NCBI RefSeq assembly: GCF_003464085.1
Contig: NZ_QSDR01000005.1
Coordinates: 62,001 to 126,000 of the forward strand
DNA from: Clostridium sp. AM58-1XD
GTDB taxonomy: Bacteria > Bacillota > Clostridia > Lachnospirales > Lachnospiraceae
Reading direction: 5' to 3'
Length of the DNA: 64,000 bases
The position numbers and the translations under genes were made by a program. Positions 8,950 through 42,576 of the stretch are shown in pieces. A model generated the notes under the pieces. That model did not search any database and was not told where the DNA came from. It was given only the letters and a program-made list of their open reading frames with translations. Every line of letters starts with the position of its first letter. Within the stretch, counting starts at the first letter, position 1.

Positions 8950-10729
8950 ATGTATTATCCAGAAGAACTTGTAGAAGAAGTGAGAATGAGGAATGACATC
9001 GTGGACGTGATTTCTGGTTATGTAAGGCTTCAGAAGAAAGGAAGCAATTATTTTGGCCTCTGTCCGTTCCACAATGAAAAGTCACCGTCGTTTTCCGTTT
9101 CGCCGTCAAAGCAGATGTATTACTGTTTTGGCTGCGGAGCAGGGGGCAACGTGATTACATTTATTATGGAATATGAGAATTATACCTTCAGTGAAGCATT
9201 AAGGATGCTGGCCGACAGGGCGGGAATTGAACTGCCGAAAGACGATAATTCCAAAGAGGCGAGAGCCAGGGATGATCTGCGCCAGACGCTTCTGGAAATC
9301 AATAGCTGGCGGCTAATTATTTTTACTACCAGCTGAGGCAGCCTCAGGGTGAAGCGGCTACCGATATCTGGCGGACAGGCAGCTGAGCGAGGAGACGATG
9401 AAGCGGTTCGGCCTTGGATATGCGAATAAAACGAGCAACGACCTGTATCAGTATCTGAAATCAAAAGGTTACGACGACGCGGTTTTAAAGGAGACAGGCC
9501 TTGTCACCATAGAGGAACGTGGCGGCAGGGACAAGTTCTGGAACAGAGTCATGTTTCCGATTATGGATGTGAACAACCGGGTGATCGGCTTCGGCGGACG
9601 TGTCATGGGAGACGGTATGCCGAAATATCTGAACTCGCCTGAGACCAGGATTTTCGATAAAGGTAGAAATCTTTACGGCCTGAATTACGCCAGAACATCG
9701 AGAGAAAAACAGATTCTGGTCTGTGAAGGATATATGGATGTGATATCCATGCATCAGGCCGGTTTTACAAATGCTGTGGCTTCGCTTGGAACGGCGCTGA
9801 CTTCTCAGCATGCAGTGCTTTTAAAGCGATATACGGACAGGGTGATCCTGACATATGACAGCGACGACGCCGGAATAAGGGCGGCTCTGCGGGCGATTCC
9901 GATTCTCAAGGAAGTGGGCATTTCTGCAAAGGTACTCAGTATGGAGCCGTATAAGGATCCTGATGAATTCATGAAGAATCTGGGGGCGGATGAGTTCAGA
10001 AAGCGGATTGAGGCCGCCAGAAACAGCTTTTATTTCGAGATCGATGTCATGAGAAAAAATTATGACAGGAATGACCCGGAACAGGAGACGGCGTTCCATA
10101 ATGCGCTTGCGAGAAAACTTTTGGAATTTGAAGAGCCCCTGGAACGGGATAATTACATACAGGCAGCAGCAAGAGAGTACTTTATACGGTACGAAGATTT
10201 AAGACGGCTGGTCAACAGCCTCGGCAGCAGACTGGGAACAGGAGCAGGAGCGGCAGCTGCCGGAAAAGAGGAGGTAAAAACGAGGGAGCCGGGAGGCAGA
10301 AGGAAGGATAAGGAGGATGGCATCAGAAAGTCTCAGAGGCTGCTCCTTACATGGCTGATTGAAAATCCGGTACTCTTTGATAAAATAGAGGGGGTAATTA
10401 CTGAGAATGATTTTTTGGAGCCGCTTTACCACAAGGTGGCCGCGATGGTGTTTGCAGGCCATGCAGCCGGAAATCTGAATCCGGCGGGCATTTTAAACCA
10501 TTTTATTAACGATGAGGATGAATACAGGGAGGCAGCGGCATTATTCAATGCCAGCCTGAATGAATCTCTGGATAATGAAGAACAGAAGAAGGCTTTTTCG
10601 GAAACGGTCCTGAAGGTGAGAAAGAACAGCCTGGATCATTTGAGCAGAAATGTCAGGGACATCGCGGAGCTGCAGAAAATCATTGAGGCGCAGGCGGCGC
10701 TTAAAACACTGCATATTTCCCTGGATTAG
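8950..10729 (+). CDS. dnaG: DNA primase (frameshifted)
   Basis: Synthesises RNA primers at the replication fork. The N-terminal zinc-binding domain is intact (CPFHNEKSPSFSVSP and YYCFGCGAGGN), followed by the RNA polymerase core with FPIMDVNNRVIGFGGR, the Toprim motifs VCEGYMDV and TYDSDDAGIRA, and a C-terminal helicase-binding domain. Two single-base deletions, near 9303-9305 and near 9359, put residues about 118-137 in other frames (KLAANYFYYQL and RYLADRQLSEE are readable in the right order). Restoring them gives a 593-residue protein. dnaG is essential, so these must be sequence errors or else the cell would carry another copy. It lies between dgt and rpoD. Confidence 0.92.
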
Positions 10730-26542: not shown

Positions 26543-28017
26543 ATGAGAGAAATCTGGCTGCTTGTGCCGATCATTCTTCCGATTCTGACAGGGATGGTCA
26601 TTCTTCTCATCCGCCCGAAAAAGAGAGGCGTTCTCTGGTGGATTACAGGAACAGGCGTTACCCTGACTTCAGCCGCCATTTTCCTGCTGGCGCTTTATCC
26701 GCCGGTTGGCCGTCTGGTGCTCTTTTCCTTTGGAAACAAAATGGTGTTTTCCCTTGGAGCAGACGGGCTTTCCCGGGTATTTGCGGCGATGATCGCTTTT
26801 TTATGGCCTCTGACGACCATGTATTCCTTTGAATATATGAAGCACGAAGGCCGGGAAAATAAATTTTTCTGCTGTTTTTCCATTACATATGGAGTGGTAA
26901 CCGGCATTGCCTTTGCAGGAAGCCTCATTACCATGTATTTTTTCTATGAGCTGATGACTTTTATCACCCTTCCCATGGTAATGCATTCCATGGATAAAAA
27001 GGCCGTCTATGCAGGCAAGAAATATCTGCCTTTTCCATGACAGGGGCGGCGCTGGCGTTTGTCAGCCTGATCGCGATCTATCACTATTCCACTACAATGG
27101 AATTCGTCTGGGGCGGAGTGCTGGAGAGCGGGATTTCGGGAACAGAAGCGACTCATATGTATGCCGCTTTTCTGCTGGCCTTTTTTGGCTTCGGTGTAAA
27201 AGCAGCCATTATTCCATTTGAAAGCTGGCTTCCGACGGCTTCTGTGGCGCCGACGCCGGTGTCGGCCCTGCTTCATGCGGTAGCCGTTGTAAAGGGCGGC
27301 GTGTTCGCTATCATGCGGCTGATATACTGGATATTCGGCCCTGATTTCCTCTATGGAAGCTGGGCTCAGGCCATCGTAATCGGCGTGGCGGGGGCAACGA
27401 TTATATATGGATCGGGAAGAGCGTTTTTTACCCAGCATCTGAAGAGGAGACTGGCATATTCCACGGTCAGCCAGCTTTCCTATATCCTGCTGGGCATTAC
27501 GCTTATGACGCCGGCCGGTCTGTCAGCCGGCCTGACCCACATGATTTTTCACGCATTTATGAAAATCACGCTGTTCTTCTGCGCAGGGGCGGTGCTTTAT
27601 AAGACGGAGCAGGAATACGTTTACCAGATGAAGGGGGCAGGGAAATCCATGCCTGTCATATTTTTCTGCTTTTCCGTCATGGGGCTGGCACTGGTGGGGG
27701 TTCCGCCTTTGGGAGGCTTCATCAGTAAATGCCGGATCGGAATAGCGGCGGCCGGGTCGGGAGTCCTGATTGGGAATCTTGGTGTATGCGCGCTGATCCT
27801 TTCGGCGCTTCTCACCCTGTTTTACATGGCGACGGTGATCGCTGCGGCGTGGTTTCCGGAGAAGGGAAAAGAAGAGAAGATATGGGATGAAAAACATGAT
27901 CCGAACTGGATGATGAAACTGCCCGTCATTACGATCACAGCCGTCTGTGTTCTTCTGGCGCTCAATGCCGGAAAAATGACGGCAGTTTTCGACAGAATTG
28001 CATCCGGAATGCTTTGA
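26543..28017 (+). CDS. Proton-conducting antiporter subunit, ND5/MrpD-like (third; frameshifted)
   Basis: 491 residues once a base missing near 27027-27030 is restored; the first part ends YAGKKYLPFP and the next frame continues FSMTGAALAFVSLI. TM5 Glu in FFYELMTFITLPMVM, TM7 Lys in FGVKAAIIPFESWLPTASV and the HAFMKITLFFCAG block are conserved. GAAAGGAGAG precedes the ATG, 14 bases after the preceding gene. Last gene before the strong terminator at 28046. Confidence 0.85.
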
Positions 28018-28194: not shown

Positions 28195-29130
28195 TTACTT
28201 TCTGGAAACTGCCTTCTCTGCGGCAGCAGCAACTGCGTCTGCATCCAGACCGTATTTTTTCAGAAGATCGGCGTATGGGCCGGATTCTCCATGGCGGTCC
28301 TGCATTCCAATCATCTCTGTTGGAACGGCACAGCCGGCTTTTGCCAGAACCTCGGCAACAGCTCCGCCAAGTCCGCCGATAACGCTGTGTTCTTCAGCGG
28401 TGACGATTGCGCCCGTTTCCCTGGCGCATTTTTCGATTAATTCTGCGTCGATCGGCTTAATGCAGTACATGTCCACAACTCTTGCATGGATTCCTTTCGC
28501 TGCAAGAGCTTCGGCGGCAGCGATCGCTGTGCTTACCATAAGGCCGCATGCGATAATGGTTACGTCAGTACCTTCTCTTACAACCATGCCTTTGCCGATT
28601 TCAAATTCTGCTCCTTCCGGATGACAGTCAGGCGCTGCATCTCTGGAAAGGCGGATATACATAGGGGCGTCTACTTCGATGGCTGTCTTAACCATCCAGT
28701 CTGTAATCCCGGCATCGGAAGCTACCATAACAGTAACTCCTGGAAGGGTTCTCATCAGGGCGATGTCTTCTAATGCATGGTGGGTAGCGCCGTCGAAAGC
28801 GTCGGACAGACCGCCGTAGCCGCCCATCATCTTGATATTCAGTCCGGAGTAAGACATGAAAGTTCTTGCAGCAAGGGAACCGAGAGTAGTAAGGAATACG
28901 GCGAATGTATTCACAAACGGAATCTTGCCGCTCTTAGCCATACCAGCAGCCATGCCCATCATTGCATACTCAGAAATACCGCAGTTGTAAAAACGGTCCG
29001 GGAATTCCTTTCCGAAAACTGCAGATTTTGTAGAACCGGATACGTCTGCATCCAACACAACAATGTTTTCATTGGTTGCACCGTATTTTGTAATTGTCTC
29101 TCCATATACGTCGCGAATCGCTTTAGCCAT
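28195..29130 (-). CDS. Transketolase, C-terminal subunit
   Basis: 311 residues covering the pyrimidine-binding and C-terminal domains of a transketolase split in two genes. Visible are VVLDADVSGSTKSAVFGKEFP, the catalytic-cofactor Glu region FYNCGISEYAMMGMAAGMA, and GGLSDAFDGATHHALEDIALMRTLPG. The C-terminal domain includes TAEEHSVIGGLGGAVAE. Its start overlaps the stop of the N-terminal subunit gene (TAATG), so the two are coupled and presumably form an alpha2beta2 enzyme. Split transketolases occur in primary metabolism but also in sugar islands. Here a GntR regulator follows, which argues for a specialised role. Confidence 0.88.
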   Translation of the reverse strand: MAKAIRDVYGETITKYGATNENIVVLDADVSGSTKSAVFGKEFPDRFYNCGISEYAMMGMAAGMAKSGKIPFVNTFAVFLTTLGSLAARTFMSYSGLNIKMMGGYGGLSDAFDGATHHALEDIALMRTLPGVTVMVASDAGITDWMVKTAIEVDAPMYIRLSRDAAPDCHPEGAEFEIGKGMVVREGTDVTIIACGLMVSTAIAAAEALAAKGIHARVVDMYCIKPIDAELIEKCARETGAIVTAEEHSVIGGLGGAVAEVLAKAGCAVPTEMIGMQDRHGESGPYADLLKKYGLDADAVAAAAEKAVSRK

Positions 29131-29957
29131 TACTGTGCACCTCCTAATTCTTTCATCGCTGCTTCGTAGTGTTCGTCCTTAATCGGAGCTCCATGCCATG
29201 TGTTTTTGCCTTCCATGAAGGAAACGCCCTTGCCTTTGACGGTTTTTGCCAGGATAATGCTCGGGACACCCTTGACAGACTTTGCAGCAGCAATAGCAGC
29301 GCTGATCGCCGCACAGTCGTGTCCGTCACATACAACCGTATTGTAGCCGAAAGCTTTGAACTTTAAAGCGATGTCACCCATAGGCATGATTTCATCAGAA
29401 GTACCGTCAAGCTGTACGCCGTTCCAGTCGAGGATCGTAATCAGCCTGTCGGCTTTGAACTTGGAAGCGTTCATGCAAGTCTCCCATACGACACCTTCGT
29501 TGATTTCACCATCGCCTAAGATCGCATATGTATAGGCGTCAATACCGTCATGCATGTCAGAAAGGGCAATACCAAGAGCAAATGGATAGCCTGCGCCTAA
29601 AGGACCGGTAGAAGCTTCTACACCAGGCGTTTCCTTAGAACATGGATGTCCCTGAAGGCGGCTGTTGATCTGGCGGAGAGTCTTCATCTCTTCTTCCGGG
29701 AAGAATCCTTTTTCTGCAAGATTTAAATACAGCATGGGAGCTGCATGTCCCTTGCACAGAATGATTTTGTCCCGGCTTCTGTCATCGATATTTTCCGGGG
29801 TCACATTTGCCTCGTTAAAGTATAGTGTGGTTAGAATCTCACAAACGGAGAGAGAGCCACCTGGATGTCCTGTCTGGATGCCATGCAATGTCTCGATCAG
29901 ATTTTTTCTGAACTTGAGACAAAGAGCATCCAACTCCTGTTTCTTTTCGTTGGTCAT
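29130..29957 (-). CDS. Transketolase, N-terminal (TPP-binding) subunit
   Basis: 275 residues forming the thiamine diphosphate-binding half. The metal/TPP motif is ILGDGEINEGVVWE...AS.FKADRLITILDWNG (GDG at about residue 143), and conserved HGIQTGHPGGSLSVCEILTTLY and LCKGHAAPMLYL blocks are present. AAAGGAGA precedes the ATG. The first gene of a two-gene minus-strand operon directly downstream of the regulator gene (26 bases). It transfers two-carbon units from a ketose to an aldose acceptor. Confidence 0.88.
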   Translation of the reverse strand: MTNEKKQELDALCLKFRKNLIETLHGIQTGHPGGSLSVCEILTTLYFNEANVTPENIDDRSRDKIILCKGHAAPMLYLNLAEKGFFPEEEMKTLRQINSRLQGHPCSKETPGVEASTGPLGAGYPFALGIALSDMHDGIDAYTYAILGDGEINEGVVWETCMNASKFKADRLITILDWNGVQLDGTSDEIMPMGDIALKFKAFGYNTVVCDGHDCAAISAAIAAAKSVKGVPSIILAKTVKGKGVSFMEGKNTWHGAPIKDEHYEAAMKELGGAQ

Positions 29958-29983: not shown

Positions 29984-30625
29984 TTATATAGTGTGGTCAA
30001 AAAAATATAAGAACGCCTTTTTGCGAGCGTTTTCCGTATGTATGGTTACCTGGGATACGATCTCGGATTCGGAACGCTGAAGCAGAGCATTAATAATGGA
30101 AACATGCTCTTCGATAACAGGAGAATTGGTGTCAATATTAAAGAGAATATTCCGGATTCTTGTCTCATGGTCCTGAACGATCCGAAATGTGTTCTCGATA
30201 AACAGGTTGTTGATATAAGGCACCACGGACGAGTGCAGCTCCAGGTCCAGGTTATTGTAGTAAATTTCCTGTTCATGGCTGCTCATGTGATCAGGGGGAT
30301 TCAGAAGCCTCCATCTCATATCCAGAAGCTTTTCATCCTCGATCTTTCCGCAGGCCCGCTTGAAAAGCTGTGGCTCCAGCATGATCCTGGTATCAAAAAT
30401 CTGTTCCAGAAGATGAAAGGTAACAGGGGCTACGAGAATACTCTTTCGGGGATGGATCTCAATGAACCCTTCGTGATGGAGGGTCTGAAAGGCTTCCCGA
30501 ATAGGAGTGCGGCTGACAGACAGCTTTTCCTGAAATACCTTTTCGGAAAGCTCTTCTGAGGGCTTCAACTTACCAGAAACAATCTGCTCTTTAATTATAT
30601 CATAAGCATAATCCGTTTTCGACAT
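29984..30625 (-). CDS. GntR-family (FadR-type) transcriptional regulator
   Basis: 213 residues: an N-terminal winged helix (YDIIKEQIVSGKLKPSEELSE, then SVSRTPIREAFQTLHHEGFIEI) and a C-terminal FCD ligand-binding domain with the metal-ligand positions DLELHSSVVPYINN and EEHVSIINAL. FCD regulators usually sense small organic acids, such as sugar acids or their breakdown products. It is transcribed ahead of the split transketolase and divergently from the sugar operon, and very likely controls both. AGAAGGA lies 10 bases before the ATG. Confidence 0.88.
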   Translation of the reverse strand: MSKTDYAYDIIKEQIVSGKLKPSEELSEKVFQEKLSVSRTPIREAFQTLHHEGFIEIHPRKSILVAPVTFHLLEQIFDTRIMLEPQLFKRACGKIEDEKLLDMRWRLLNPPDHMSSHEQEIYYNNLDLELHSSVVPYINNLFIENTFRIVQDHETRIRNILFNIDTNSPVIEEHVSIINALLQRSESEIVSQVTIHTENARKKAFLYFFDHTI

Positions 30626-30665
30626 GATGTAATATCCTTCTTCTGTTTAATTGGAAAGAGTGTAA

Positions 30666-30680
30666 TATATCACAGATATA
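30666..30680. promoter_or_regulatory. Candidate operator 1 for the GntR regulator
   Basis: TATATC-ACA-GATATA, a perfect 6-bp inverted repeat with a 3-base centre, 41 bases upstream of the regulator's start codon. A 12-of-15 match occurs at 30909-30923. Inferred from position, symmetry and recurrence. Confidence 0.5.
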
Positions 30681-30864
30681 AAGCAATCCATATACCAAGT
30701 AATCTTAAAATGAATCCTCTATAAGTATAGCGATTGATGGAGATAAAATCAATAAAAATATAAAAAAAAACATGAAAAAAAGTGAGATTTTAATGCGATA
30801 AAAATTTTTGAAAATGACAATATTCGTCAATATGCACAAAAAAATACGAAAATATAGTGAAAAA

Positions 30865-30894
30865 TTGACAATTGTGGGGGGGGGGGATTATGAT
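30865..30894 (+). promoter_or_regulatory. Promoter of the sugar operon with an 11-base G tract in its spacer
   Basis: TTGACA (30865-30870) and TATGAT (30889-30894) are separated by 18 bases that include 11 consecutive G (30876-30886). It lies about 75 bases upstream of the first isomerase gene. Loss of a single G would give the optimal 17-base spacing, so tract slippage could switch expression on and off. The whole region 30626-30967 is otherwise very AT-rich and non-coding. Confidence 0.75.
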
Positions 30895-30908
30895 ATATTA
30901 GATACATA

Positions 30909-30923
30909 AATATTACAGATATG
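30909..30923. promoter_or_regulatory. Candidate operator 2 for the GntR regulator
   Basis: AATATTACAGATATG agrees with operator 1 at 12 of 15 positions and falls at about +9 to +23 relative to the presumed start site of the sugar operon, where a bound repressor would block transcription. Confidence 0.45.
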
Positions 30924-30967
30924 ACGAAAGTACTACGGCAAAAGTGGCATGTTAGAAAGGCGATTTT

Positions 30968-32458
30968 ATGGAAAAAAATTATCCGGAAATCAGATTAGGA
31001 CTGGTAATGAGCAGCAGAAACAATTTTTCTGAACAATTATCCGCCGATTCCGCAGCTGATTTGAAACAATTTACGGCAAATGAAAAGATGGATGTTTCCG
31101 TTTGCCCGATTCTTGTGGAAAGGGAAAATAATATCTCTGATATATTAGACTTCCTGAGAAGAGAGAAATGCAATGCATTGGCAGTTGTATTGGGGAATTT
31201 TGGAGCGGAGACGCCGGAGACAATCCTGGCGGAACGTTTTGACGGCCCGGTGATGTTTGCAGGGGTAACAGAAGAATGCGATGAACGGATGTATGATTCC
31301 AGGAGGGATTCCTACTGTGGTATGCTTAACTGTTCCTATAATCTGGGGATTCGGGGGCAGAAGGCATATATTCCCAGATATCCGGTGGGAACATGCGAAG
31401 GTATCGTAAAGGCGATGAAAAAATTCCTTCCGGTGGCAAGAGCCGTCGTAGGGCTGAAGGCTTTAAAAATTATCTCATTCGGGCCGAGACCAGACGATTT
31501 TGTCGCATGTAATGCACCGATTAACGGGCTATACCGGCTGGGAGTGGCAATTCAGGAGAACTCCGAGCTGGATCTGCTGCTGGCATTTAACCGCCATGAA
31601 GGAGATAAGAGGATTCCGGCTGTTGCAGAGGATATGGCCAGGGAATTGGGCAGCGATAAGTATAAAGAGACTCTTCCTGCTATGGCCCAGTATGAACTGA
31701 CCCTTTTAGACTGGATGGAAGAAAACAAGGGAGACAGAAAATATGTGGTATTTGCAAATAAATGCTGGCCGGCATTTCAGCAGGCGTTCCGCTTCCTCCC
31801 TTGTTATGTGCACGGCCGACTGGCAGGAAAGGGGATTCCGGTAGCCTGTGAGACCGATATTTACGGGGCATTATCAGAGTTTATAGGCCTGTGCGCCGGA
31901 GAAAAACCGGTTACGCTGATGGATATTAATAACGCCGTTCCCGATGACATTTATAAAAAGGTGCAGGAAGATGGTTACCCATATCGTCAGGGAGAACTAT
32001 TTATGGCGTTCCACTGCGGAAACACAAATTCCTGTTATCTGATCCGGCCTGAGCTTAAATATAAACTGAACAGAAAAGACCCATATGCGCCTGAAACAGG
32101 AAAGGAGTTAAACAGAGGGACATTAGAGGGGCGGATGATACCAGGGCCGTCTTCGGTTTTCCGCCTTCATGGAGCTCCTGACGGAAGCCTGCTGTCCTAT
32201 GTGGTAAGTGGAGAAATCCTCCCTGTAGAAGTAAATACTTATGGAAATTACGGTTTGATTGGGGTAAGAGAGATGGAACGGTTTTACCGGTATGTGCTGC
32301 TGGATAAACACTTTCCACATCATGCGGCAATTACATTTGAGGATTGCTCAGAAGCGGTTTATGACATATTTGAATATCTGGATATTCCCTATATCGGGTA
32401 TAACCAGCCAGCCAGTATTCATTATGCAAAGGAAAATCCATTTTATAAGGATGTGTAA
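30968..32458 (+). CDS. L-fucose/L-arabinose isomerase-family protein (first of three in the locus)
   Basis: 496 residues related to the FucI/AraA family of manganese-dependent aldose-ketose isomerases. An N-terminal Rossmann-like half carries LAVVLGNFGAETPETIL and FAGVTEE; the central part has NKCWPAFQQ and CETDIYGALSEFI, which matches the metal-binding Glu/Asp region of the family; the C-terminal part contains MAFHCGNTNSCYL and GPSSVFRLHGAPDG. GAAAGG lies upstream of the ATG. First gene of the plus-strand sugar operon. It is clearly different from the two paralogues at 37-40 kb. The substrate is unknown; an aldose or an acidic sugar imported by the adjacent TRAP system is the simplest guess. 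Confidence 0.78.
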   Translation: MEKNYPEIRLGLVMSSRNNFSEQLSADSAADLKQFTANEKMDVSVCPILVERENNISDILDFLRREKCNALAVVLGNFGAETPETILAERFDGPVMFAGVTEECDERMYDSRRDSYCGMLNCSYNLGIRGQKAYIPRYPVGTCEGIVKAMKKFLPVARAVVGLKALKIISFGPRPDDFVACNAPINGLYRLGVAIQENSELDLLLAFNRHEGDKRIPAVAEDMARELGSDKYKETLPAMAQYELTLLDWMEENKGDRKYVVFANKCWPAFQQAFRFLPCYVHGRLAGKGIPVACETDIYGALSEFIGLCAGEKPVTLMDINNAVPDDIYKKVQEDGYPYRQGELFMAFHCGNTNSCYLIRPELKYKLNRKDPYAPETGKELNRGTLEGRMIPGPSSVFRLHGAPDGSLLSYVVSGEILPVEVNTYGNYGLIGVREMERFYRYVLLDKHFPHHAAITFEDCSEAVYDIFEYLDIPYIGYNQPASIHYAKENPFYKDV

Positions 32459-32510
32459 AAGGGAGTCTTTCGCATATGAGAAATAAAAAAATTACTTATG
32501 GAGGTAAAAA

Positions 32511-33605
32511 ATGAAAAAAGTATTAGCAACGTTACTTGCAGTGGGGCTTGCAGCATCTTGCGTGGGATGTGGGGGCTCACCAAAGACGGAGACAACGGCT
32601 GCTCCGGCAGCAACAGAGGCTGCGAAGGAGACAGAAGCAGCAGAGGAGAAGGGAACGGATACTACAGAAGCGGCAGCCAGCGGAGATGTGATCACTCTTT
32701 CCATCTGTGACAGCCAGCCGGCCAGCTCCTTATTGGGACAGGCCATCGGAACCTCTTTTGCAGACGCCCTGGCAGATTTATCCGGAGGAACCATGCAGGT
32801 TCAGTATTACCCGGCGGCGCAGCTTGGCAACGGAACGACATGCATGCAGATGGTTCAGTTAGGTACTCTTGATATGTACCGCTGTGATGCATCCGCATTA
32901 TATGACTATGGCATCGCCAGCATGGCAGTCCCATCCCTTCCTTACATTTTCAGAGACAGACAGCATGCGATCGAAGTAGCGCATAGTGAAATCGGCGATA
33001 AGCTTCTTCAGGACATTACAGATTCCGGGACTGGCTTTGTAGGCGTAGGCTGGCTGGTTGATACGCCACGCGCGTTCTTTACGGCGAAGAAGGAAATTAA
33101 GACGTTAGCAGACTTAAAGGGGCTGAAGATGAGAAGCGTGGAAGCGAACCTGTACCTGGATTATAAGGCGGCACTTGGCATGAATCCGACACCTTTGGCA
33201 TTCTCTGAAGTTTATACTTCTCTGTCTACAGGCGTTATCGATGCAGCTGCAAATACGCTGGATTCTTTCGTTTCCAACAAGCTGTACGAAGTATGTAAGT
33301 ACTTTGTAATGAACAATGGTATGATTCCGGCTTATCCGGTTGTTATTTCTGAAAAGACATGGGCTAAGCTGAATGACGAGCAGAAGGGCTGGGTATTGGA
33401 AGCATGGCAGACGGCAGGCGATTATTTTGCTAAGGAAGGCGATGCTTTAATGGAAGATCAGATCGCTTTTTGTGAAGAACATGGCGTAACTTTCTGTTAC
33501 CCGGAAGACGAAGACGCATGGAAAGAAGCTTGTAAGAACGTTACCGCTGAGTACGGCGAAGGCTTTGAAGATATGATCGCAGAGATTGAAAAAGTAGGTC
33601 AGTAG
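32511..33605 (+). CDS. TRAP transporter substrate-binding protein (DctP family)
   Basis: 364-residue lipoprotein: the signal peptide ends in LAASCVGCGG, and a Thr/Glu/Ala-rich linker follows. The folded domain has the DctP features ADLSGGTMQVQYYPAAQLGN, LADLKGLKMRSVEANLYLDY and EVYTSLSTGVIDAAANTLD. The Arg in GLKMRS is the residue that normally makes a salt bridge with the carboxylate of the ligand, so an anionic substrate is expected. GGAGG lies six bases before the ATG. It forms a Na+-driven importer with the next two genes. Confidence 0.92.
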   Translation: MKKVLATLLAVGLAASCVGCGGSPKTETTAAPAATEAAKETEAAEEKGTDTTEAAASGDVITLSICDSQPASSLLGQAIGTSFADALADLSGGTMQVQYYPAAQLGNGTTCMQMVQLGTLDMYRCDASALYDYGIASMAVPSLPYIFRDRQHAIEVAHSEIGDKLLQDITDSGTGFVGVGWLVDTPRAFFTAKKEIKTLADLKGLKMRSVEANLYLDYKAALGMNPTPLAFSEVYTSLSTGVIDAAANTLDSFVSNKLYEVCKYFVMNNGMIPAYPVVISEKTWAKLNDEQKGWVLEAWQTAGDYFAKEGDALMEDQIAFCEEHGVTFCYPEDEDAWKEACKNVTAEYGEGFEDMIAEIEKVGQ

Positions 33606-33652
33606 TTACAGTAGTCTGACGGTTTTGACAAATCATGATCAGACGGCCGGAA

Positions 33653-33710
33653 GGGATGCTGCAATGCTGAAATCGATTGCAGATTCAGTCATGGGGCATC
33701 CCCCGGTTTT
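33653..33710 (+). terminator. Weak hairpin between dctP and dctQ
   Basis: GGGATGC (33653-33659) pairs with GCATCCC (33696-33702), with an inner partial stem, and CCGG plus four T follow. Leaky terminators at this position would explain the usual excess of binding protein over membrane subunits. A second stem (ACGCAGC with its mirror) follows at about 33722-33747. Confidence 0.4.
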
Positions 33711-33774
33711 AAGTACCCCCGAAACGCAGCCGTATTTGCGCTGCGTCAGATTCTAAAGGAATGGGTGATTAAAG

Positions 33775-34248
33775 GTGAAAACAATTCAGAAAATATATGA
33801 CATCATTTTTAAACTGGTAGAAGGAGTTGCCGTTGTTTTCATGTGGGGCATGGTATGCATTGTGGCATACAGTGTATTTATGCGCTATGTGCTGCATAAT
33901 GCACCGCGATGGGGAGATGAACTGGCGCTTCTGTGTATGGTATGGTTCGGATTTTTAAGTGCGGCCGTTGCGTTAAAAGAGGACCGCCATATCCGCATCA
34001 ATTTTTGGGGAATGTTCCTTTCTAAGAAAATGCACAAGGGTCTGGAGCTGATCGTACATGGAATCGGCCTTGTAGCTCTTTTAGTGTTCTTTAAATACAG
34101 TGTACATCTGGTTGGTCTTGCAGGAATGACAAAAATGACAGGTTCCCGTCTGCCCCTTTCTTATTTATATATGGCAGAGCCGGTAGGAATCGGGATGCTC
34201 ATTGTAGCGATGATAGGAAGGATAGGTGATATAATTGCAAATCGATAG
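33775..34248 (+). CDS. TRAP transporter small permease (DctQ family)
   Basis: 157 residues, four helices, with the family motif FMRYVLHNAPRWGDELALLCMVWFGFL split across helices 1 and 2 and ALKEDRHIRINF after helix 2. GTG start at 33775. Overlaps the large permease by 14 bases. Confidence 0.9.
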   Translation: MKTIQKIYDIIFKLVEGVAVVFMWGMVCIVAYSVFMRYVLHNAPRWGDELALLCMVWFGFLSAAVALKEDRHIRINFWGMFLSKKMHKGLELIVHGIGLVALLVFFKYSVHLVGLAGMTKMTGSRLPLSYLYMAEPVGIGMLIVAMIGRIGDIIANR

Positions 34249-35530
34249 TGTAGCAGTCGCTTTATTATTGGGGATTTTCTTCGGTCTGCTCTTAGCGGGA
34301 GTACATATTTTCCTGGCAGTTATGGCTGCGTCCCTTGTTACGTGTTTTTATATCGGAGTAGATTTACAGACGATGACTATGCAGGTTATTAAGGGGATGA
34401 ATGTGTATTCTCTGATGGCAGTTCCTTTCTTTATTCTTGCTGGTGAGGTAATGGGCGCCGGAGGAATTACAGACCGGCTGGTCGGGCTTTCCAAAAGCTT
34501 GGTAGGATGGATTCGAGGAAGCTTGGCACACGTGAATATCGTTGCCAGCTTATTTTTTGGCTCAATTTCCGGTTCTTCTGCCGCAGATACGGCTTCGATC
34601 GGCTCTATGATGATTCCTATGATGGAAAGAGACGGATATGACACAGACTTTTCCACCTGCGTTACAATGGCAAGTTCTGTAGAAGGCATGCTGATTCCGC
34701 CAAGCCACAACATGGTACTGTTTGCTCTGGCGGCAGGCAACGTATCGATTGCAAGGCTTTTCATGGCAGGCATTGTACCAGGCTTCGTGCTGGCATTTGT
34801 CCTTTGCGTGTACAGCTATATTGTAGCGATTAAGAGAAATTATCCAAAGGGAGAAAAATTCAACCTGAAGGTGGCCTTCCAGTGCTTTGTAAAAGCTCTC
34901 CCGGGGCTGGGAACGGTGCTTATTGTGGTAGTAGGCGTTCTTGGCGGCATCTTTACTGCAACGGAAGCTGCGGCATTTGCAGTCGTATATGCATTGATTG
35001 TGGGTATTTTCATTTACAGGGAAATCAAGCTCAGGGATATCCCGAAGATATTTGCAAAAGCCTTAAAGACAAGTGCGATTATTCTGATTCTCATCGGACT
35101 TTCCAACTGCTTCAGCTGGCTGGTTACCTATATGAATGTGGCGACCTATGTGACGGAACTTATTATGTCCATAACCAATAACACGGTTGTGATTCTTCTT
35201 ATGATAAACGTTTTCCTTCTGATCTGCGGAATGGTAATGGATATGGCGGCTATTATTCTGATCGTTACACCGATCCTTCTTCCGATCGTTACCAATCTTG
35301 GGATGGAGCCATGCCACTTCTGTGCTATGCTCATTTTAAATCTGGGTATCGGACTGATTACACCGCCGGTAGGAAATACCTTGTTTATCGGAAGCGCCAT
35401 TTCCGGACGTACCGTAGGACAGCTTTCTAAAGCGATGATTCCGTTTTACATCATGATGGGAATTGCGCTGGTTTTGATTACTTATATTCCTCAGATTTCC
35501 ACATTCCTGCCAAATCTGTTAGGAACGTGA
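34235..35530 (+). CDS. TRAP transporter large permease (DctM family)
   Basis: 431 residues, about 12 helices. Conserved blocks are FFILAGEVMGAGGITDRLV, FGSISGSSAADTASIGSMMIP, GMLIPPSHNMVLF and, near the C-terminus, NLGIGLITPPVGNTLFIGSAIS. TTG start at 34235 with AGGTGAT upstream. Completes the Na+-coupled importer. The closest well-studied relatives move sugar acids, C4-dicarboxylates or sulfonates. Confidence 0.92.
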   Translation: MQIDSVAVALLLGIFFGLLLAGVHIFLAVMAASLVTCFYIGVDLQTMTMQVIKGMNVYSLMAVPFFILAGEVMGAGGITDRLVGLSKSLVGWIRGSLAHVNIVASLFFGSISGSSAADTASIGSMMIPMMERDGYDTDFSTCVTMASSVEGMLIPPSHNMVLFALAAGNVSIARLFMAGIVPGFVLAFVLCVYSYIVAIKRNYPKGEKFNLKVAFQCFVKALPGLGTVLIVVVGVLGGIFTATEAAAFAVVYALIVGIFIYREIKLRDIPKIFAKALKTSAIILILIGLSNCFSWLVTYMNVATYVTELIMSITNNTVVILLMINVFLLICGMVMDMAAIILIVTPILLPIVTNLGMEPCHFCAMLILNLGIGLITPPVGNTLFIGSAISGRTVGQLSKAMIPFYIMMGIALVLITYIPQISTFLPNLLGT

Positions 35531-35575
35531 TGAATCCGATTCGAATAAGAACATGATAGGGAAGGGGATGGAGCT

Positions 35576-36589
35576 GTGAACTTATTAATTATTGGAGGAA
35601 CCGGTGTTATCAGCAGGGAAATTGTAAACCAGGCTGTAAAAGCGGGCCATAAGGTTACAATCTTTAACCGTGGCAGCAAAAAGTGTGAGGTACCGCCAGA
35701 AGTGACTGTAATAAATGGGGATCGGAATGACAAAGGGGATTTTAAGGCAAAAATGGCGTCTGCTGCCGCAGATACGGTGATCGACATGACCTGTTTTGAT
35801 CGAGAGGCTGCCGAACAGACTGTGGAGGTATTTGGAAATCAGGTGAAGCAGATTATTGTCACCTCCAGCATTGCCGCTTATGACAGGCCGTACAAGAGCT
35901 ATCCGATCCGGGAAGACGAGGAATGCCTGGATACAAAGAGGGAATTCACCTATGGATTCCAGAAGGCAGAGGCAGAGCGGTATCTTGTGTCCCGGATGGG
36001 AAAAGTAAATGCGGCAATTACCATTATCCGTCCTTCTCTGACGTTTGGCCCCGGGGCTGCGAACTTCGGCATTCTTCGCCAGAATCGAAATGTGGTGAGA
36101 AGGATACGGGAAGGAAAGCCGGTGGTGATGATTGGGGAAGGTGTGATTCCCTGGAGTTTTACCTTTGTACAGGATTTGGCAGAGGGATTCCTTTTAAGCT
36201 GCGGCAATGAAAAAACGTATAATGACTGTTTCCACGTTACGAATACGGAGATTGTAATGTGGGAGGATCTGTACAAGGCTGTAGGAGAAGCTGTGGGAAG
36301 AGAGCCGAAATTCGTATATGTGCCAACAGTGCTTCTGCGGGAGATGCTTCCTTCCGTATGTGCTCATCTGAATTTTGAAAAAGTACATTTTTCTGTGTTC
36401 TCGATGGATAAATTTAAAAAGGCGGTTCCGGAATATGAGCCGAAGGTAAGGCTTGTGGACGGAGTGAAGGAGCTTGTGGACTGGTGGGAAGAAACAGATT
36501 TCCCGTATGATGAAGAAAGGGACAGGCTAGAGGACGAAATTTGCAGGTGTTATCAGGAATTCAGAGATAAGCTGGTAAAGCTCATCTGA
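35576..36589 (+). CDS. NAD(P)-dependent epimerase/dehydratase-family (extended SDR) protein
   Basis: 337 residues with an N-terminal Rossmann fold (IIGGTGVISREIVNQA, residues 4-19) and the extended SDR catalytic arrangement: TSSIAAY, then YGFQKAEAER, where YxxxK is replaced by Y-G-F-Q-K. IRPSLTFGPG and VIPWSFTFVQDLAEG follow. Such proteins epimerise or dehydrate sugars, usually nucleotide sugars, but members in catabolic operons act on free sugars or sugar acids. GTG start with GGGGATGGAG upstream, 46 bases after dctM, so part of the operon. Confidence 0.8.
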   Translation: MNLLIIGGTGVISREIVNQAVKAGHKVTIFNRGSKKCEVPPEVTVINGDRNDKGDFKAKMASAAADTVIDMTCFDREAAEQTVEVFGNQVKQIIVTSSIAAYDRPYKSYPIREDEECLDTKREFTYGFQKAEAERYLVSRMGKVNAAITIIRPSLTFGPGAANFGILRQNRNVVRRIREGKPVVMIGEGVIPWSFTFVQDLAEGFLLSCGNEKTYNDCFHVTNTEIVMWEDLYKAVGEAVGREPKFVYVPTVLLREMLPSVCAHLNFEKVHFSVFSMDKFKKAVPEYEPKVRLVDGVKELVDWWEETDFPYDEERDRLEDEICRCYQEFRDKLVKLI

Positions 36590-36605
36590 AAAATGGAGGA
36601 TAGAA

Positions 36606-37070
36606 GTGAGAGGAGATTTTGATCCGAAAGCTCCGGTAATTATTGGCTGTGACCATGGCGGAGTGCGGTTGAAGAAAAGTATTGAGAAATATTTAGATGA
36701 GCAGGGAATTGCATATCAGGATATCGGAACAGATACGGAAGAGGTCGTCCGCTATCCATACTATGCAAAGGAAGTGGCAGAGAGGATTTTAAGCGGAGAG
36801 TTCCAGAGAGGCATTTTGATATGCAGCACAGGCGTCGGGATGTCGATGATGGCAAATCGATATCCTGGAATCAGGGCCAGCCTGGTGGAGAACTGTTATG
36901 CGGCGAGAACGGCGAGGGAACATACGGATGCCAATGTCCTCTGCCTGGGCGGTAAGATTCTCGGTGATTTCCTGGCCCTAGAGATACTGGATGAATGGCT
37001 GAATGCCAGATTTATCGGAGGCCGCCATAATATCAGTCTGGATTTAATAGAAGAATTTGAAAAAAAATGA
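36606..37070 (+). CDS. RpiB/LacA/LacB-family sugar isomerase
   Basis: 154 residues matching ribose-5-phosphate isomerase B and its relatives. The N-terminal GCDHGGVRLKKSIEKYL, the Cys-containing GILICSTGVGMSMMANR and REHTDANVLCLGGKILG are the family signatures. Members isomerise ribose 5-phosphate, galactose 6-phosphate, tetrose phosphates, or, in the sulfo-transketolase pathway, 4-deoxy-4-sulfoerythrose (SqwI). The gene is 17 bases after the epimerase gene and 16 bases before the next isomerase gene. With the split transketolase this suggests a transketolase-based route. GTG start with GGAGGAT five bases upstream. Confidence 0.87.
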   Translation: MRGDFDPKAPVIIGCDHGGVRLKKSIEKYLDEQGIAYQDIGTDTEEVVRYPYYAKEVAERILSGEFQRGILICSTGVGMSMMANRYPGIRASLVENCYAARTAREHTDANVLCLGGKILGDFLALEILDEWLNARFIGGRHNISLDLIEEFEKK

Positions 37071-37085
37071 TGAAGGAGGCAGAAG

Positions 37086-38492
37086 ATGTCGAAAATTCGT
37101 GTTGGTATTTTATCGTTTTCTGACGGCAGGGCAAGCGTCCATGAAGATCTATCCGGATATATTGCAGACTGTTCGTTAAGGATTCGGACAGCTTTGGAAA
37201 AGACGGGAGAGGTCATTATATGCGGGAGTGACCGTACCGTTTCCGGAAACGGTCAGGCAAGGGAATATGCCCTGGAATTAAAGGCAGAGCTGCCGGATGC
37301 GGTCATATTTAATGTACCTGTATTTGCATTTCCGAATTTTTCGCTGATTGCGGCCAGCGTACTGAAGCTACCGGTGCTTGTGATATCCAATGTTAACGGA
37401 GGACTACCCGGACTTGGCGGTCTGCAGGCAGCCAGCAGCCTGATGCGGCAGTGCGGCTATTATTGCGAAAAGGTATGGGGAGATATTGAGGACCAAAATG
37501 TGCTGGCGCGGTGCATGCATTTTCTGCGGGCAGCTCACGCGGTTACAGATATGGCCGGGCAGACCTTTGGACTGATTGGCGGACGGAGTATCGGCATGGG
37601 TTCGGGGACTGCTTCTGCCGACCGGTGGCAGCAGGTGTTCGGTGTGGATATCGACCATATGGATCAATCGGAAATTTTAAGAAGGGCGGAACTGGTTCCG
37701 GAAGACAAGGTAGAACGGGCGGCACAATGGCTGAAAGACAGAGTGAGCATCGCTTACGATTCCGATAAGCTGACGGAGGAATCCCTAAGACAGCAGATCC
37801 GTCATTATTATGCGACAAAAGACATTTGTGAGGAAAAGGACTATGCTTTTGTGGGAGTGAAATGCCATTATGAATTAAGCGCATATTACTGTACGCAATG
37901 TCTGGCTGCCGCATTTTTCAATGACCCCTATGATTGGGACGGACCGAAGGAAACAAGGGTATTTACATGTGAAGCGGACGCTGAGGGCGGACTTACTATG
38001 CAGGTGATGAAGGAGATTTCCGGTCTGCCGGTGATTTTCTCCGATTTCCGTTATTACAGCAAGAAGAAAAATCTATTTTATTTCTGTAATTGCGGCGCAA
38101 TGGCAACCTGGTATGCAGGACAGAGCAGCGTGCCGGAGGAAAATTTAAAGAAGGTTACGTTAAAGCCGATTATCCCTAAGTATGCCGGAAAAGGCTGTCA
38201 TGTGGAATATATTGCGGCAGGCGGACAGATGACATTTGGGAGGATTACCCATACAGACGGTAAATTTGTGTTTTCCGTATTTACGGGGCAGGCAAAGGAA
38301 ATGCCGGAAAGCATGCTGAAGGCAACGTGTGAACAGTGGCCTCATATGTTTGTAGAGCCGGATGTCTCTTATGAGAAGGTGATTGAGTCTTATGACTGCA
38401 ACCACATTCATGGAGTTCTGGGGAATTATGTGGAAGAGATCCGCTACTTCTGCGAGATGAAGGGAATTGAATTTAACTACATACATGAATGA
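37086..38492 (+). CDS. L-fucose isomerase-like protein (second)
   Basis: 468 residues, homologous to the C-terminal and central domains of the FucI/AraA family: GQTFGLIGGRSIGMGSGTA, DYAFVGVKCHYEL, CTQCLAAAFFNDPYDWDG and CEADAEGGLTMQ, in which the Glu and Asp are probable metal ligands, and a C-terminal NHIHGVLGNYVEE helix with two His. It is closely related to the next gene over its full length, so the pair looks like a tandem duplication or two subunits. GAAGGAGG precedes the ATG. Substrate unknown. Confidence 0.78.
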   Translation: MSKIRVGILSFSDGRASVHEDLSGYIADCSLRIRTALEKTGEVIICGSDRTVSGNGQAREYALELKAELPDAVIFNVPVFAFPNFSLIAASVLKLPVLVISNVNGGLPGLGGLQAASSLMRQCGYYCEKVWGDIEDQNVLARCMHFLRAAHAVTDMAGQTFGLIGGRSIGMGSGTASADRWQQVFGVDIDHMDQSEILRRAELVPEDKVERAAQWLKDRVSIAYDSDKLTEESLRQQIRHYYATKDICEEKDYAFVGVKCHYELSAYYCTQCLAAAFFNDPYDWDGPKETRVFTCEADAEGGLTMQVMKEISGLPVIFSDFRYYSKKKNLFYFCNCGAMATWYAGQSSVPEENLKKVTLKPIIPKYAGKGCHVEYIAAGGQMTFGRITHTDGKFVFSVFTGQAKEMPESMLKATCEQWPHMFVEPDVSYEKVIESYDCNHIHGVLGNYVEEIRYFCEMKGIEFNYIHE

Positions 38493-38551
38493 ACGGTCTG
38501 CGATTATGATGTATGTACGGAAGCAGCTCAGGCGTGGAGAATAAAAAGAAT

Positions 38552-39950
38552 ATGAAGAAGAGAAACATACAGCTGATTTTATTTTCGGAGACAAAGATGC
38601 GGGAGGATGTCTATCAAGCCCGCAGAGAGATCCAGGAGCGGGAGCTTAAAAAGCATTTGGATAGGCTCTCAGAGATATTTGATGTAGATTATGTAGATAA
38701 ATGTGAAATCAGAAGTAAGCGGCAGGGGCTTGAAATTGCAAAGAAGGTCAACAAAGGCGCAGGGCCGGTTATCCTATACATTCCTATTTTTATAAATCCT
38801 TCTATTGTGGCCCATACGGCAAAGGCAATCAATAAGCCGATGGCCCTGGTGGGAAACCAGGCCAAGGACAGTTTGAGCCAGCTGGGATTTCTGGCGGCGG
38901 CAGGAGCTATGGACCAGATCGGCGTGGAGTATAAACGAATTCCATATGACGGCGGTGAAGAAGAGGCGGTCAGGGAGCTGACTTCCTGGGCCAACGCTGC
39001 AAACGCTATCGAGGAGCTGAACGGACAGACCTCGGATGTATCGGAGGAAGAAGCCTGGGGATCAGCACAGGAACAGCGGATCTGGCTCTGTGGGAAAAGA
39101 TCTTCGGAGTCGATATCGAGCACATCGACCAGTTCGAAATTGTAAACAGGGGAGCCGGGATTTTGGATGAGGCAATCGATGGCTGCGTCCGTTTTATTGA
39201 AGAGAAATACGGCAGGGTCGAGTATGACGAGAGCAGGAATTTTTCCAGAGAACATTTGAAAAAAATGGCGGCCAGTTATCTGGCGACCAGGAGCATTATC
39301 GATGCATACGAACTGGATTTTATCGGTATCAAATGTCAGACAGAACTGAGCAACCACTATTGCCTTCAGTGCCTGAACGTTCAGATGATGAATGACCCTT
39401 ATGACGCAGACGGAAGAAAATGTCCGGTGGCATGCAGCTGCGAGGCGGATGCAGACGGCGCGTTGTCCATGCAGATACTGAAGTTAATATCAGGCGGCAG
39501 GCCTACGGCTCTGCAGGATATCGCTCAGATTACGCCTGAGCGCTTTGTGTTGGCAAACTGCGGTTCCATGGCTTCTTACTTTGCGGCTTTATCAGAGAAT
39601 TCGGAGGAAAATTTGAAGGAAGTTCACCTTATGCCCCATGGCTTTGGGATGGCAGGAGGCGCTGCAACGCAGTTGTATGCGGGGCAGGGACGTTTACATA
39701 TATGCGTCTGTTCAGAAAGAACGACCAGTATGAAATGGCTTTCTTTACAGGAAATACGGTGAAGGAGGACAGGGAAAAGATTAAGGAATACTCTCCTTAC
39801 AGGCCGACATCCTTTGTAGAGCACCACGTAGACTTAAATGAATTTATGAAAGTGTACAGCTCAAATCACATTCATTGTGTGGAGGGCGATTATACCGCCG
39901 ACCTGGAAGAGTTCTGCAGGATGAAAGGAATCAGGTATTATCATCTGTAA
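38552..39950 (+). CDS. L-fucose isomerase-like protein (third; frameshifted)
   Basis: 466 residues after restoring one base near 39029-39031 and one near 39681-39689. Frames join as IEELNGQT + LGCIGGRSLGISTGTA and ATQLYAGQG + TFTYMRLFRKNDQ. It aligns with the preceding gene throughout: LDFIGIKCQTEL, CLQCLNVQMMNDPYDADG, CEADADGALSMQ and NHIHCVEGDYTADLEEF. I chose ATG 38552, after GTGGAGA; an in-frame ATG at 38513 has no ribosome binding site. Last gene of the sugar operon. Confidence 0.74.
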
Positions 39951-39959
39951 AAATCTATA

Positions 39960-40059
39960 CCCCGAACCATATGCGGGCTGTTGTGAGTGCCATGCGCCAG
40001 TAATTTTTTAGGAGGACAAAGGCGCAAAGCAATTTCTATCAGCTGCATTTGGTTCGGGG
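39960..40059 (+). other. Intergenic region with a long-range hairpin
   Basis: Between the sugar operon and the antiporter gene (39951-40192). A 15-base arm at 39960-39974 (CCCCGAACCATATGC) pairs with 40045-40059 at all but one position around a 70-base loop; only short T stretches follow. It may be the operon terminator or a structured leader. The loop holds an orphan AGGAGG with no frame behind it. Confidence 0.4.
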
Positions 40060-40192
40060 ATTTCCGGTTTTACAGGGTAATCGGAAGACGATAGAGGCAT
40101 AATAGGAAAAAAAGAATTGTAAAAGAGAAGGGGATATATTAAAATGTAACGTAAGATGATAGAAGAAACGCGGAAAAGACAGGGGGAGAAAC

Positions 40193-42147
40193 ATGGGGGA
40201 CTACAGGATAGCATGGGCCGTTTTCTGGCCGTTTGCGGCGGCTGTGATCAGCTATATCATAGGAAAATATGACAAGGCCTGGAGAAATCATTTCGCCTCG
40301 GCGGCTATGGTAATGGAGTTTACATGGCTGCTGTTTCTCTATCCTCATGGAAGCACGGCAGAATTTACGTGGGCCGGATTCTGCGAAGGCGGAATTTATC
40401 TGAAAGCGGACGGATTCCGCTGGCTCTATGGGATGATCGCAGCATTTATGTGGATGATGACGACCCTGTTTTCTGAGGAGTATTTCAGGCATTACAGAAA
40501 CAGGAACAGGTACTACTTTTTTATGCTGATGACATGCGCAGCTACGATCGGCGTGTTCCTGAGCAGCAATCTGTTTACTACCTTCCTGTTTTTTGAGATT
40601 ATGAGCATGACATCTTTTGTGATGGTCATACATGAAGAAACTAAGATGGCTAAAAAAGCCGCAGGAACGTATCTGGCAATCGCCGTGATCGGAGGTCTGA
40701 GCGCTCTGTTTGGACTCTTTATGATATATGCAAAAATCGGAACGCTGGATATGGGGCAGATCGGAATGCTGGCGGATAAAATCGGAAGAGGACCTCTTTT
40801 CTATACCGCCGGAATTCTGATTCTCGTGGGATTTGGGGCAAAGGCCGGCATGTACCCGCTGCACGTGTGGCTCCCCAATGCCCATCCGGTAGCTCCGGCT
40901 CCCGCAAGCGCCCTTCTGTCAGGAATTCTGACGAAGGCCGGCATGTTCGGTGTTCTCGTTATCAGCAGTACCATGTTCTTTCATGACGTCCAGTGGGGGC
41001 GGATGATTCTGGTGCTGGGAACCATAACGATGGTGCTGGGAGCTGTTTTGGCTGTATTTACCATGGATTTGAAACGAACGCTGGCATGCTCATCCATGTC
41101 CCAGATCGGTTTTATCCTGGTGGGCGTGGGGATGCAGGGCCTTCTGGGAGAACACAATGCGCTGGCGGTGAGAGGAACCCTTCTGCATATGGTGAATCAT
41201 TCTCTGATCAAGCTGGTGCTGTTTATGGCAGCAGGCTGTATCTATATGAACCTTCACAAGCTGAATTTAAATGACATCAGAGGATACGGCAGGGGAAAAC
41301 CCTTTCTGACAGCCGTATTCGCCATGGGGACGCTGGGGATTATGGGTATTCCGCTGTGGAACGGATACGTCAGCAAGACGCTGCTTCACGAGAGTATTGT
41401 GGAATATATTGCAATGGCGGGGGAGCGCGGATGGAATACGGCGCCCTACCACGTGCTGGAATGGCTGTTCCTGACGGCAGGCGGGCTTACGGTAGCTTAT
41501 ATGACGAAGCTGTTTATCGCCATATTTATTGAAAAGCCGGCAGGCGGGCAGGAATGCGGCAGGGAAAAGGCCGCTTACATCAATATGGAAAGCAGGATTG
41601 CCCTCGGCTTGTCAGCGGCCTTGCTTCCTGCCCTGGGAATGCTGCCCGGTCTGACGATGGACAGGATTGCCGATCTTGGACAGGGATTTATGGGCGGAAT
41701 AAGCCCGGAACACCAGGTGGCCTATTTTTCAGCGGTAAATCTGAAGGGCGCCGTGATCAGCATGGTGATCGGCAGCATCGTATATATCGTAGTGATCCGC
41801 GGCATGCTGATGGAACGGGCAGAAGATGGGACCATGATATATGTGGAACGATGGCCTGCGCGACTTGATCTGGAGGAAACCGTCTACCGCCCGGTAGTTC
41901 TGAGATTTTTGCCGTTCTGGGGAGCATTTTTTGCCCGCGTTGTCAACGCGCTGTGTGAAGGTGGACTGACGATTATTCTCAAACGGAAAGAGCGGATGAG
42001 AACGGTGCGGCCGAAGGAGGATACGGGATTTTTCGAAGGGACACAGGCGGTGAAAATCCTCACATGGTGCGGTCTACCATGGAATACAGCTTCCTGACGT
42101 TTGGTCTGGGCCTCGTTCTGATGATCGCATATGTCCTCTTTTTCTGA
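40193..42147 (+). CDS. ND5/MrpA-like proton-conducting antiporter subunit (frameshifted at the C-terminus)
   Basis: The fourth ND2/4/5-family subunit of the window, 651 residues with a base missing near 42054-42061 restored; this recovers the C-terminal helix FLTFGLGLVLMIAYVLFF. TM5 Glu is in FLFFEIMSMTSFVMV, TM7 Lys in VGFGAKAGMYPLHVWLPNAHP, and MVNHSLIKLVLFMAAG matches TM8-9. The extra 150 residues after the core resemble the extended C-terminus of NuoL/HyfB-like proteins. It stands alone, 12 kb from the Mrp operon, with its own ribosome binding site (AGGGGGAG), and directly precedes rnpB. It may belong functionally to the Mrp complex. Confidence 0.85.
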
Positions 42148-42204: not shown

Positions 42205-42556
42205 GTTTGAGTAAGACAGATGGTCGCTGCCGCAGAGGCCGAAAGGCTGCGGGAGAGGAAAGTCCGGGCTTCACAGGGCAGGATGCCAGATAACGTCTGG
42301 CGGAGGCGACTCCAGGGATAGTGCAACAGAAATAAACCGCACAGCGTAAGCTGTGTAAGGGTGGAAAGGCAGTGTAAGAGACTACCGCCCGACTGGTAAC
42401 AGGCGGGGCATATGTAAACCCCATTTGAAGCAAGGCCGAACAGGGAGCACAGGGCGGCCCGTCCGCTCCGGGTAGGCTGCTTGAGGCCGGCGGTGACGCC
42501 GGTCCTAGATAGATGACCATCCAACGACATAACCCGGCTTATCGTCTTACTCGAAC
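42205..42556 (+). ncRNA. rnpB: RNase P RNA, class A
   Basis: The catalytic RNA that removes 5' leaders from tRNA precursors. The ends pair as P1 (GTTTGAGTAAGAC with GTCTTACTCGAAC, one G-U). Universally conserved regions are present: GAGGAAAGTCCGGGCT near 42254, the ACAGAAATA segment, AGACTACCGCCC, and the 3' GATAGATGACCATCC...ACCCGGCTTAT. The overall layout is the ancestral class A found in Clostridia rather than the Bacillus class B. Ends are set from the P1 helix and may be off by a few bases. Confidence 0.95.
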
Positions 42557-42576
42557 ATTATAAGGATTGAATAAGA

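Follow-up and report, generated by a model that had tools for sequence, protein, structure and literature searches.

The window, by which we mean the whole 64-kb stretch of DNA analysed here, contains a series of plus-strand genes that begins with a gene for a 496-aa L-fucose-isomerase-like protein (30968..32458; Pfam Fucose_iso_C, 1.6e-13). Homologues of this protein (P0002-P0009) are 65-82% identical to it, and its closest named relative, at 82%, is from Lachnospiraceae bacterium 62-35. Next come the genes of a TRAP transporter, namely the solute-binding protein DctP (32511..33605; family match), the small permease DctQ (33775..34248; Pfam) and the large permease DctM (34235..35530; family match), which occur together as a DctPQM set and all exceed their Pfam cut-offs. 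These are followed by genes for an NAD-dependent epimerase/dehydratase family protein (35576..36589; Pfam), an RpiB/LacAB family sugar-phosphate isomerase (36606..37070; family match) and a second L-fucose-isomerase-family protein (37086..38492; Pfam Fucose_iso_C, N1 and N2). A probable third isomerase-like gene (38513..39950, also on the plus strand) is present as three open frames, at 38513-39145, 39163-39762 and 39702-39950; the first piece had no family match in Pfam, and the middle piece scored 19.3 bits for Fucose_iso_C, below the cut-off of 29.3. The apparent splits between these frames may reflect either sequencing indels or a true pseudogene. Because the isomerase and TRAP genes share a strand and are separated by small gaps, we predict that they form one operon.

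Divergent from this operon, on the minus strand, is a gene for a GntR/FCD transcription regulator (29984..30625), for which both Pfam domains scored well above their cut-offs (GntR, 50.6 bits against 27, 1.5e-13; FCD, 46.6 against 24.3, 5.7e-12). Behind the regulator lies a two-part transketolase (28195..29957, minus strand), its N part at 29130-29957 and its C part at 28195-29130; the parts match the two halves of transketolase models, and their scores, as halves would, fall short of the cut-offs set for the whole protein. A 20-nt direct repeat occurs in two copies, with 80% identity, to either side of the divergent promoter region on the plus strand, one upstream of the GntR gene (30667..30686) and the other just 3' of the operon's predicted -10 hexamer (30910..30929). 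They are possible, weak candidates for GntR/FCD sites, and by a rough estimate their 13-nt core is unsurprising in such AT-rich DNA.

The sequence-only reading had placed a promoter with a G run in its spacer in front of the isomerase gene, and re-reading of the sequence bore this out in every position. The -35 hexamer TTGACA (30865..30870, plus strand) matches the consensus at 6/6 positions and is joined by the five nucleotides ATTGT (30871..30875) to an uninterrupted run of 11 G (30876..30886), the candidate slippage site, for which we also have the recurrence among relatives described below; the two nucleotides AT (30887..30888) separate the run from the -10 hexamer TATGAT (30889..30894), a 5/6 match. 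The spacer is 18 bp at present, so loss of one G would give 17 bp. A promoter of the type of porA has a homopolymer of eight or more between a recognisable -35 and -10, and this arrangement is what we found at 30865-30894. No Rfam family matched at this promoter at gathering thresholds. Elsewhere in the window, a class A RNase P RNA gene is found at 42208-42557 (plus strand).

The surroundings are AT-rich, as had been remarked, the intergenic region (30641-30967) having 27.5% G+C compared with 47.8% for the window. Apart from the G11 tract, no G or C run in the 64 kb reaches 7, the next longest being 6. When the window was shuffled 100 times with its dinucleotides preserved, 3 of the shuffles contained a run of 11 G, both strands considered. 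Scored by its two hexamers, the site reaches 11/12, the best value among the 19 promoter-like sites on both strands of the 9.6 kb from 30600 to 40200, and an equally good match straddled an arbitrary 11-bp segment at 14 of 63,811 other plus-strand positions (spacers of 16-19 bp). Elsewhere in this intergenic region the positions tested scored 9 at best, and at the tract itself the opposite strand scored 6.

An earlier caution about base deletions in this sequence was fair: open frames appear split at about 27.03 kb and at 39.15-39.7 kb, and the exact length of the G11 tract in the molecule is therefore uncertain. The first of these splits falls in the frame at 26543-28017, where it may again reflect sequencing indels or a true pseudogene; by eye, the product resembles an antiporter- or NADH-dehydrogenase-like membrane protein. 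Separately, the model match of a DnaG primase frame (9398-10729, plus strand) begins only at position 150, and the start of this frame may be split or miscalled.

For comparison with relatives we used a family sample of 397 genomes centred on a Cuneatibacter genome, whose assignment to the Lachnospiraceae rests on that centre and on its named members (G001, G005 and G006). The rpoD DNA of the window matched 392 of the 397 genomes, the best matches listed being 75-79% identical; with identities of at most 79% among these matches, the genus of the window seems to be absent from the sample, and the window most likely comes from a member of the Lachnospiraceae whose genus was not sampled. Searches for DNA orthologous to the operon gave the same picture at several ranks. 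Identity was at most 53% among the 80 loci kept from a scan of genome contigs and at most 54% among the matches listed from the 397 family genomes, and a search of 369 family genomes, which overlap the 397, returned none at E <= 1e-175. The genus search returned two genomes, at 50 and 52% identity, and the order search (186 genomes, E <= 1e-180) returned none. The G11 tract of the window is known from one sequence, and the length differences described below belong to other promoters.

The arrangement itself, as opposed to this particular operon, recurs in the family. Sites of the form TTGACN{3,12}G8N{0,4}TANNNT were present in 50/397 genomes and absent from 347/397, whereas the control with the pattern reversed was found in 1/397. 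In the genus of G373, at a looser threshold of 7 G, 30/60 genomes matched against 7/60 for the reversed pattern, a control frequency that is not negligible. A query made for G066 drew the same genomes as that for G373 but one, so the two appear to be congeneric.

We also approached the question from the tracts, taken irrespective of promoters. At least one run of 10 or more G was present in 46 of 120 genomes taken from the family sample (the source of loci L106-L240), giving 144 tracts, or 142 after merging; 16 were dropped because they had N nearby, were longer than 13 or lay too close to the end of a stretch, which left 126 usable. A promoter score of at least 10/12 was reached by 12/126 tracts on the G strand and by 0/126 on the C strand (p = 0.0004); the other tracts scored 4-9 on the G strand, and C-strand scores never exceeded 9. 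Together with the anatomy of the site, the two comparisons (50/397 against 1/397, and 12/126 against 0/126) lend good support to the view that the G run of the window lies in a promoter spacer.

The same tracts yielded some observations outside promoters. A single genome, G066, accounts for 28 runs of at least 10. Open frames of at least 150 codons contain 48/126 of the tracts on the G strand and 16/126 on the C strand, and in 9/126 the tract marks a change from one open frame to another, the pattern expected of translational phase variation. The dinucleotide TA directly follows 54 of 114 non-promoter G runs, a number that seems above the expectation from base composition.

The collected G-run promoters comprise 77 rows, or 74 distinct sites, of which 72 were scored; the sites of L271 and L301 fall outside the geometry. 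The G tract abuts the -10 hexamer in 60/72 sites, whereas in the window AT intervenes. Spacers range from 12 to 22 bp, with 19 bp the commonest (22/72) and 18-20 bp accounting for 46/72. A 17-bp spacer occurs in 8/72 G-run sites compared with 36/93 ordinary promoter matches (p = 7e-5), the latter being those matches in the fetched loci that lack a G run, and their spacer lengths peak at 17 bp; when the comparison is restricted to the same six -10 hexamers, the G-run figure is 7/58 (p = 4e-4). The sequence-only reading had taken 17 bp as the ideal that one G less would restore. That fits the ordinary promoters in these loci but may fail for G-run promoters, with their commonest length of 19 bp. 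The preference for 18-20 bp could mean either that most cells are in a weak state or that the optimum for a G-rich spacer exceeds 17 bp.

Placement of the 72 sites relative to genes is consistent with use as promoters: 1/72 lies inside an open frame of at least 150 codons on the same strand and 5/72 inside one on the other strand, and the longest downstream frame, which 65 of the sites have, starts at a median distance of 71 nt from the -10 hexamer. By a simple hydropathy rule devised for this analysis, an N-terminal signal or membrane stretch is present in 43/63 first proteins and in 44/171 other frames (p = 6e-9), the control frames having been chosen by length and possibly including spurious ones. 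Pfam was applied to 37 of the 62 listed first proteins, and for 16/37 no family matched at E <= 0.001. Among the remainder were surface-type families (BspA-type leucine-rich repeats, Ig-like Big_2 domains and choline-binding repeats), transport and secretion proteins (ABC solute-binding proteins, a TctC receptor, a type II/IV secretion ATPase and ABC ATPases) and others (GGDEF proteins, a type I 3-dehydroquinase and an enolase-superfamily enzyme). Promoters of the porA type usually, but not necessarily, serve surface or secreted proteins; in the operon of the window the first gene encodes a predicted enzyme, not a surface protein, and the second the solute-binding protein DctP.

One other locus has the layout of the window. 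In L304 (genome G210) a promoter of the form TTGACA-N9-G10-TAAAAT and a GntR/FCD gene are arranged divergently, and the genes downstream of the promoter encode, in order, an enolase-superfamily enzyme, a zinc dehydrogenase and a TRAP DctP protein. Between the window and L304 the regulators are 27% and the DctP proteins 25% identical, values so low that we attribute the resemblance to layout and not to recent descent. L304 was the only locus to match both the regulator and DctP of the window among 133 site loci, most of which are 1-5 kb long.

If the tracts slip, their lengths should differ between otherwise similar promoters. We compared 14 related pairs, hand-picked from a longer list, sharing members and representing genomes of different species rather than cells; tract lengths differed in 8 and agreed in 6, with the reservation that assemblies, probably metagenomic in many cases, may give the length of a G run wrongly. 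The clearest case is that of L314 and L316, which have tracts of 11 and 10 and spacers of 18 and 17 bp within flanks that are 98-99% identical and free of indels over 450 bp; L316 has 21 ambiguous bases in its flanks, which the identity excludes. The tract also differs in L340/L326 and L313/L326 (9/10), L346/L337 (13/11) and L356/L359 (9/8), and again in L357/L358, L339/L368 and L350/L353, but in these last three the upstream flanks align poorly (46-58%). Tracts are equal in L340/L313, L364/L332, L315/L317, L371/L323, L341/L315 and L341/L317, yet in L364/L332 an added A alters the spacer. The G-run promoter pattern is further present in 10 virus-derived IMG/VR contigs. One pair of these, L377 and L383, has 12 G against 15 nt that include two T, between flanks 99.8-99.9% identical over about 4.6 kb without indels, a difference that lends weak support to slippage; in the pairs L377/L379 and L374/L381 the tracts agree.

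Comparative and indirect evidence, namely the anatomy of the site, its recurrence in relatives with a bias of strand and orientation, the scatter of spacer lengths and the differences in tract length between related promoters, points to a porA-like promoter of the isomerase-TRAP operon that is tuned by slippage at the G11 tract, and we consider this the probable explanation. The G11 run would then be the slippage-prone spacer of a sigma-70-type promoter driving the operon. Gain or loss of a single G at replication would alter the distance between -35 and -10 and with it the level of transcription, and the outcome would be a mixed population of cells with stronger or weaker uptake of the sugar. 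By analogy with porA, activity would be highest at G10, with its 17-bp spacer, intermediate at G11 and low from G12 upwards. Ordinary control by substrate is probably superimposed by the divergent GntR/FCD protein. We infer slippage at this tract, its effect on transcription, the part played by the regulator and the use of the predicted promoter itself.

A G run could instead be a fixed and stiff structural spacer that confers a constant strength – perhaps a weak one that depends on the regulator – without any switching in the population. The clustering of 46/72 spacers at 18-20 bp would suit an optimum for G-rich spacers that is different but nonetheless fixed, and so would the equal tracts of 6/14 related pairs; against this, spacers span 12 to 22 bp among the 72 sites, and the tract of L314/L316 differs while 450 bp of flank remain free of indels. 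We regard a fixed spacer as unlikely. A real tract without any role, the operon being transcribed from a promoter elsewhere and the flanking hexamers being there by chance, might be suggested by the unremarkable number of promoter-like sites between 30600 and 40200 (19, compared with 15.3 expected from shuffles), but only the G11 site among them reaches 11/12, and the recurrence measured against reversed-pattern and opposite-strand controls argues against chance; such an explanation seems to us quite improbable.

That the G run has the wrong length or is absent, as an artefact of assembly or sequencing, is suggested by the split frames at about 27.03 kb and 39.15-39.7 kb. The tract is embedded in well-formed promoter sequence, however, and the same combination occurs in independent genomes, once (L304) in a similar operon, which makes an artefact very improbable. 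A recombination switch such as an invertible promoter, reported for Clostridioides difficile in the available part of PMC11868660, would call for flanking inverted repeats; no inverted-repeat pair of at least 12 was found in 30500-31100, and we give this alternative almost no credence.

Slippage-tuned transcription of the operon may be one instance of a wider phenomenon. The recurrence of the pattern in about one eighth of the relatives sampled, in many cases ahead of genes for secreted or membrane proteins, suggests that slippage varies expression from cell to cell in this family. We lean, with less confidence than for the operon itself, towards the view that the Lachnospiraceae hold a widespread set of slippage-controlled TTGACA-N-G8-11-TATAAT promoters that phase-vary surface proteins and nutrient-uptake operons, the window containing one metabolic switch of the set. 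The surface targets would be BspA-type leucine-rich-repeat, Ig-like and choline-binding-repeat proteins and a pilus-type ATPase, and the uptake targets TRAP, tripartite tricarboxylate and ABC solute-binding proteins. A commensal population with such a set would bet-hedge over the substrate that it takes up. Should gut Clostridia apply the switch to surface proteins and to sugar uptake, the surface and diet genes expressed could vary among isolates or metagenome bins of one species that have the same genes, and accurate reads that already exist could reveal the states. The G-run promoter pattern would offer a simple genome-wide marker for slippage-controlled genes.

Pathogens such as Neisseria, Treponema and Streptococcus pyogenes provide the best-known cases of promoters switched by a homopolymer, judging by the accessible portions of PMC7864442, PMC2791445 and PMC7098570. 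A limited literature search, in which TRAP and sugar operons were not among the terms, listed no report of such switching in the Lachnospiraceae, and no case of G-run promoter switching in Clostridium or Firmicutes was among the matches listed. One match, PMC9210968, deals in the part available with the phase-variable cwpV of C. difficile, and its poly-g refers to poly-gamma-glutamate. The proposed mechanism is of a known kind; its spread in the Lachnospiraceae and its use on a catabolic operon were not found described in this search.

Each of the closest known systems shares some features with the window. The invertible promoters of C. difficile vary expression by phase within the Clostridia, but do so by site-specific inversion, according to the extract of PMC11868660. 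In S. pyogenes, one-base changes in an intergenic T tract alter the transcript levels of two divergent genes, Spy1336 and R28-Spy1337. As presented in the available sections of PMC7098570, this case shares with ours a host from the Bacillota, an intergenic homopolymer and a regulator as one of the divergent genes, and differs in having a poly-T tract, a surface-protein/regulator pair and changes in the spacing of direct repeats rather than a G run in a spacer. The tprL gene of Treponema pallidum has a promoter-region poly-G of 7 to 11 that varies within isolates, as excerpted from PMC7864442; it encodes a surface antigen of a spirochaete. Homopolymer length also controls transcription of opc in Neisseria meningitidis, and the tract is placed over the -35 in the text available from PMC7864442 and between -10 and -35 in that from PMC2791445; it is a poly-C tract, whereas in our material 0/126 G10+ tracts scored at least 10 on the C strand. 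In porA and fetA of the same species the homopolymer, as in opc, is placed between -10 and -35, and in these two it is thought to alter the binding of sigma factor (PMC2791445, in part); the porA tract is poly-G, and its spacing is best at 17 nt (PMC7864442, in part). The promoter of the window likewise has its homopolymer between -35 and -10; it belongs to another phylum, however, and where porA and fetA encode outer-membrane proteins, it precedes a catabolic TRAP operon that diverges from a GntR/FCD gene.
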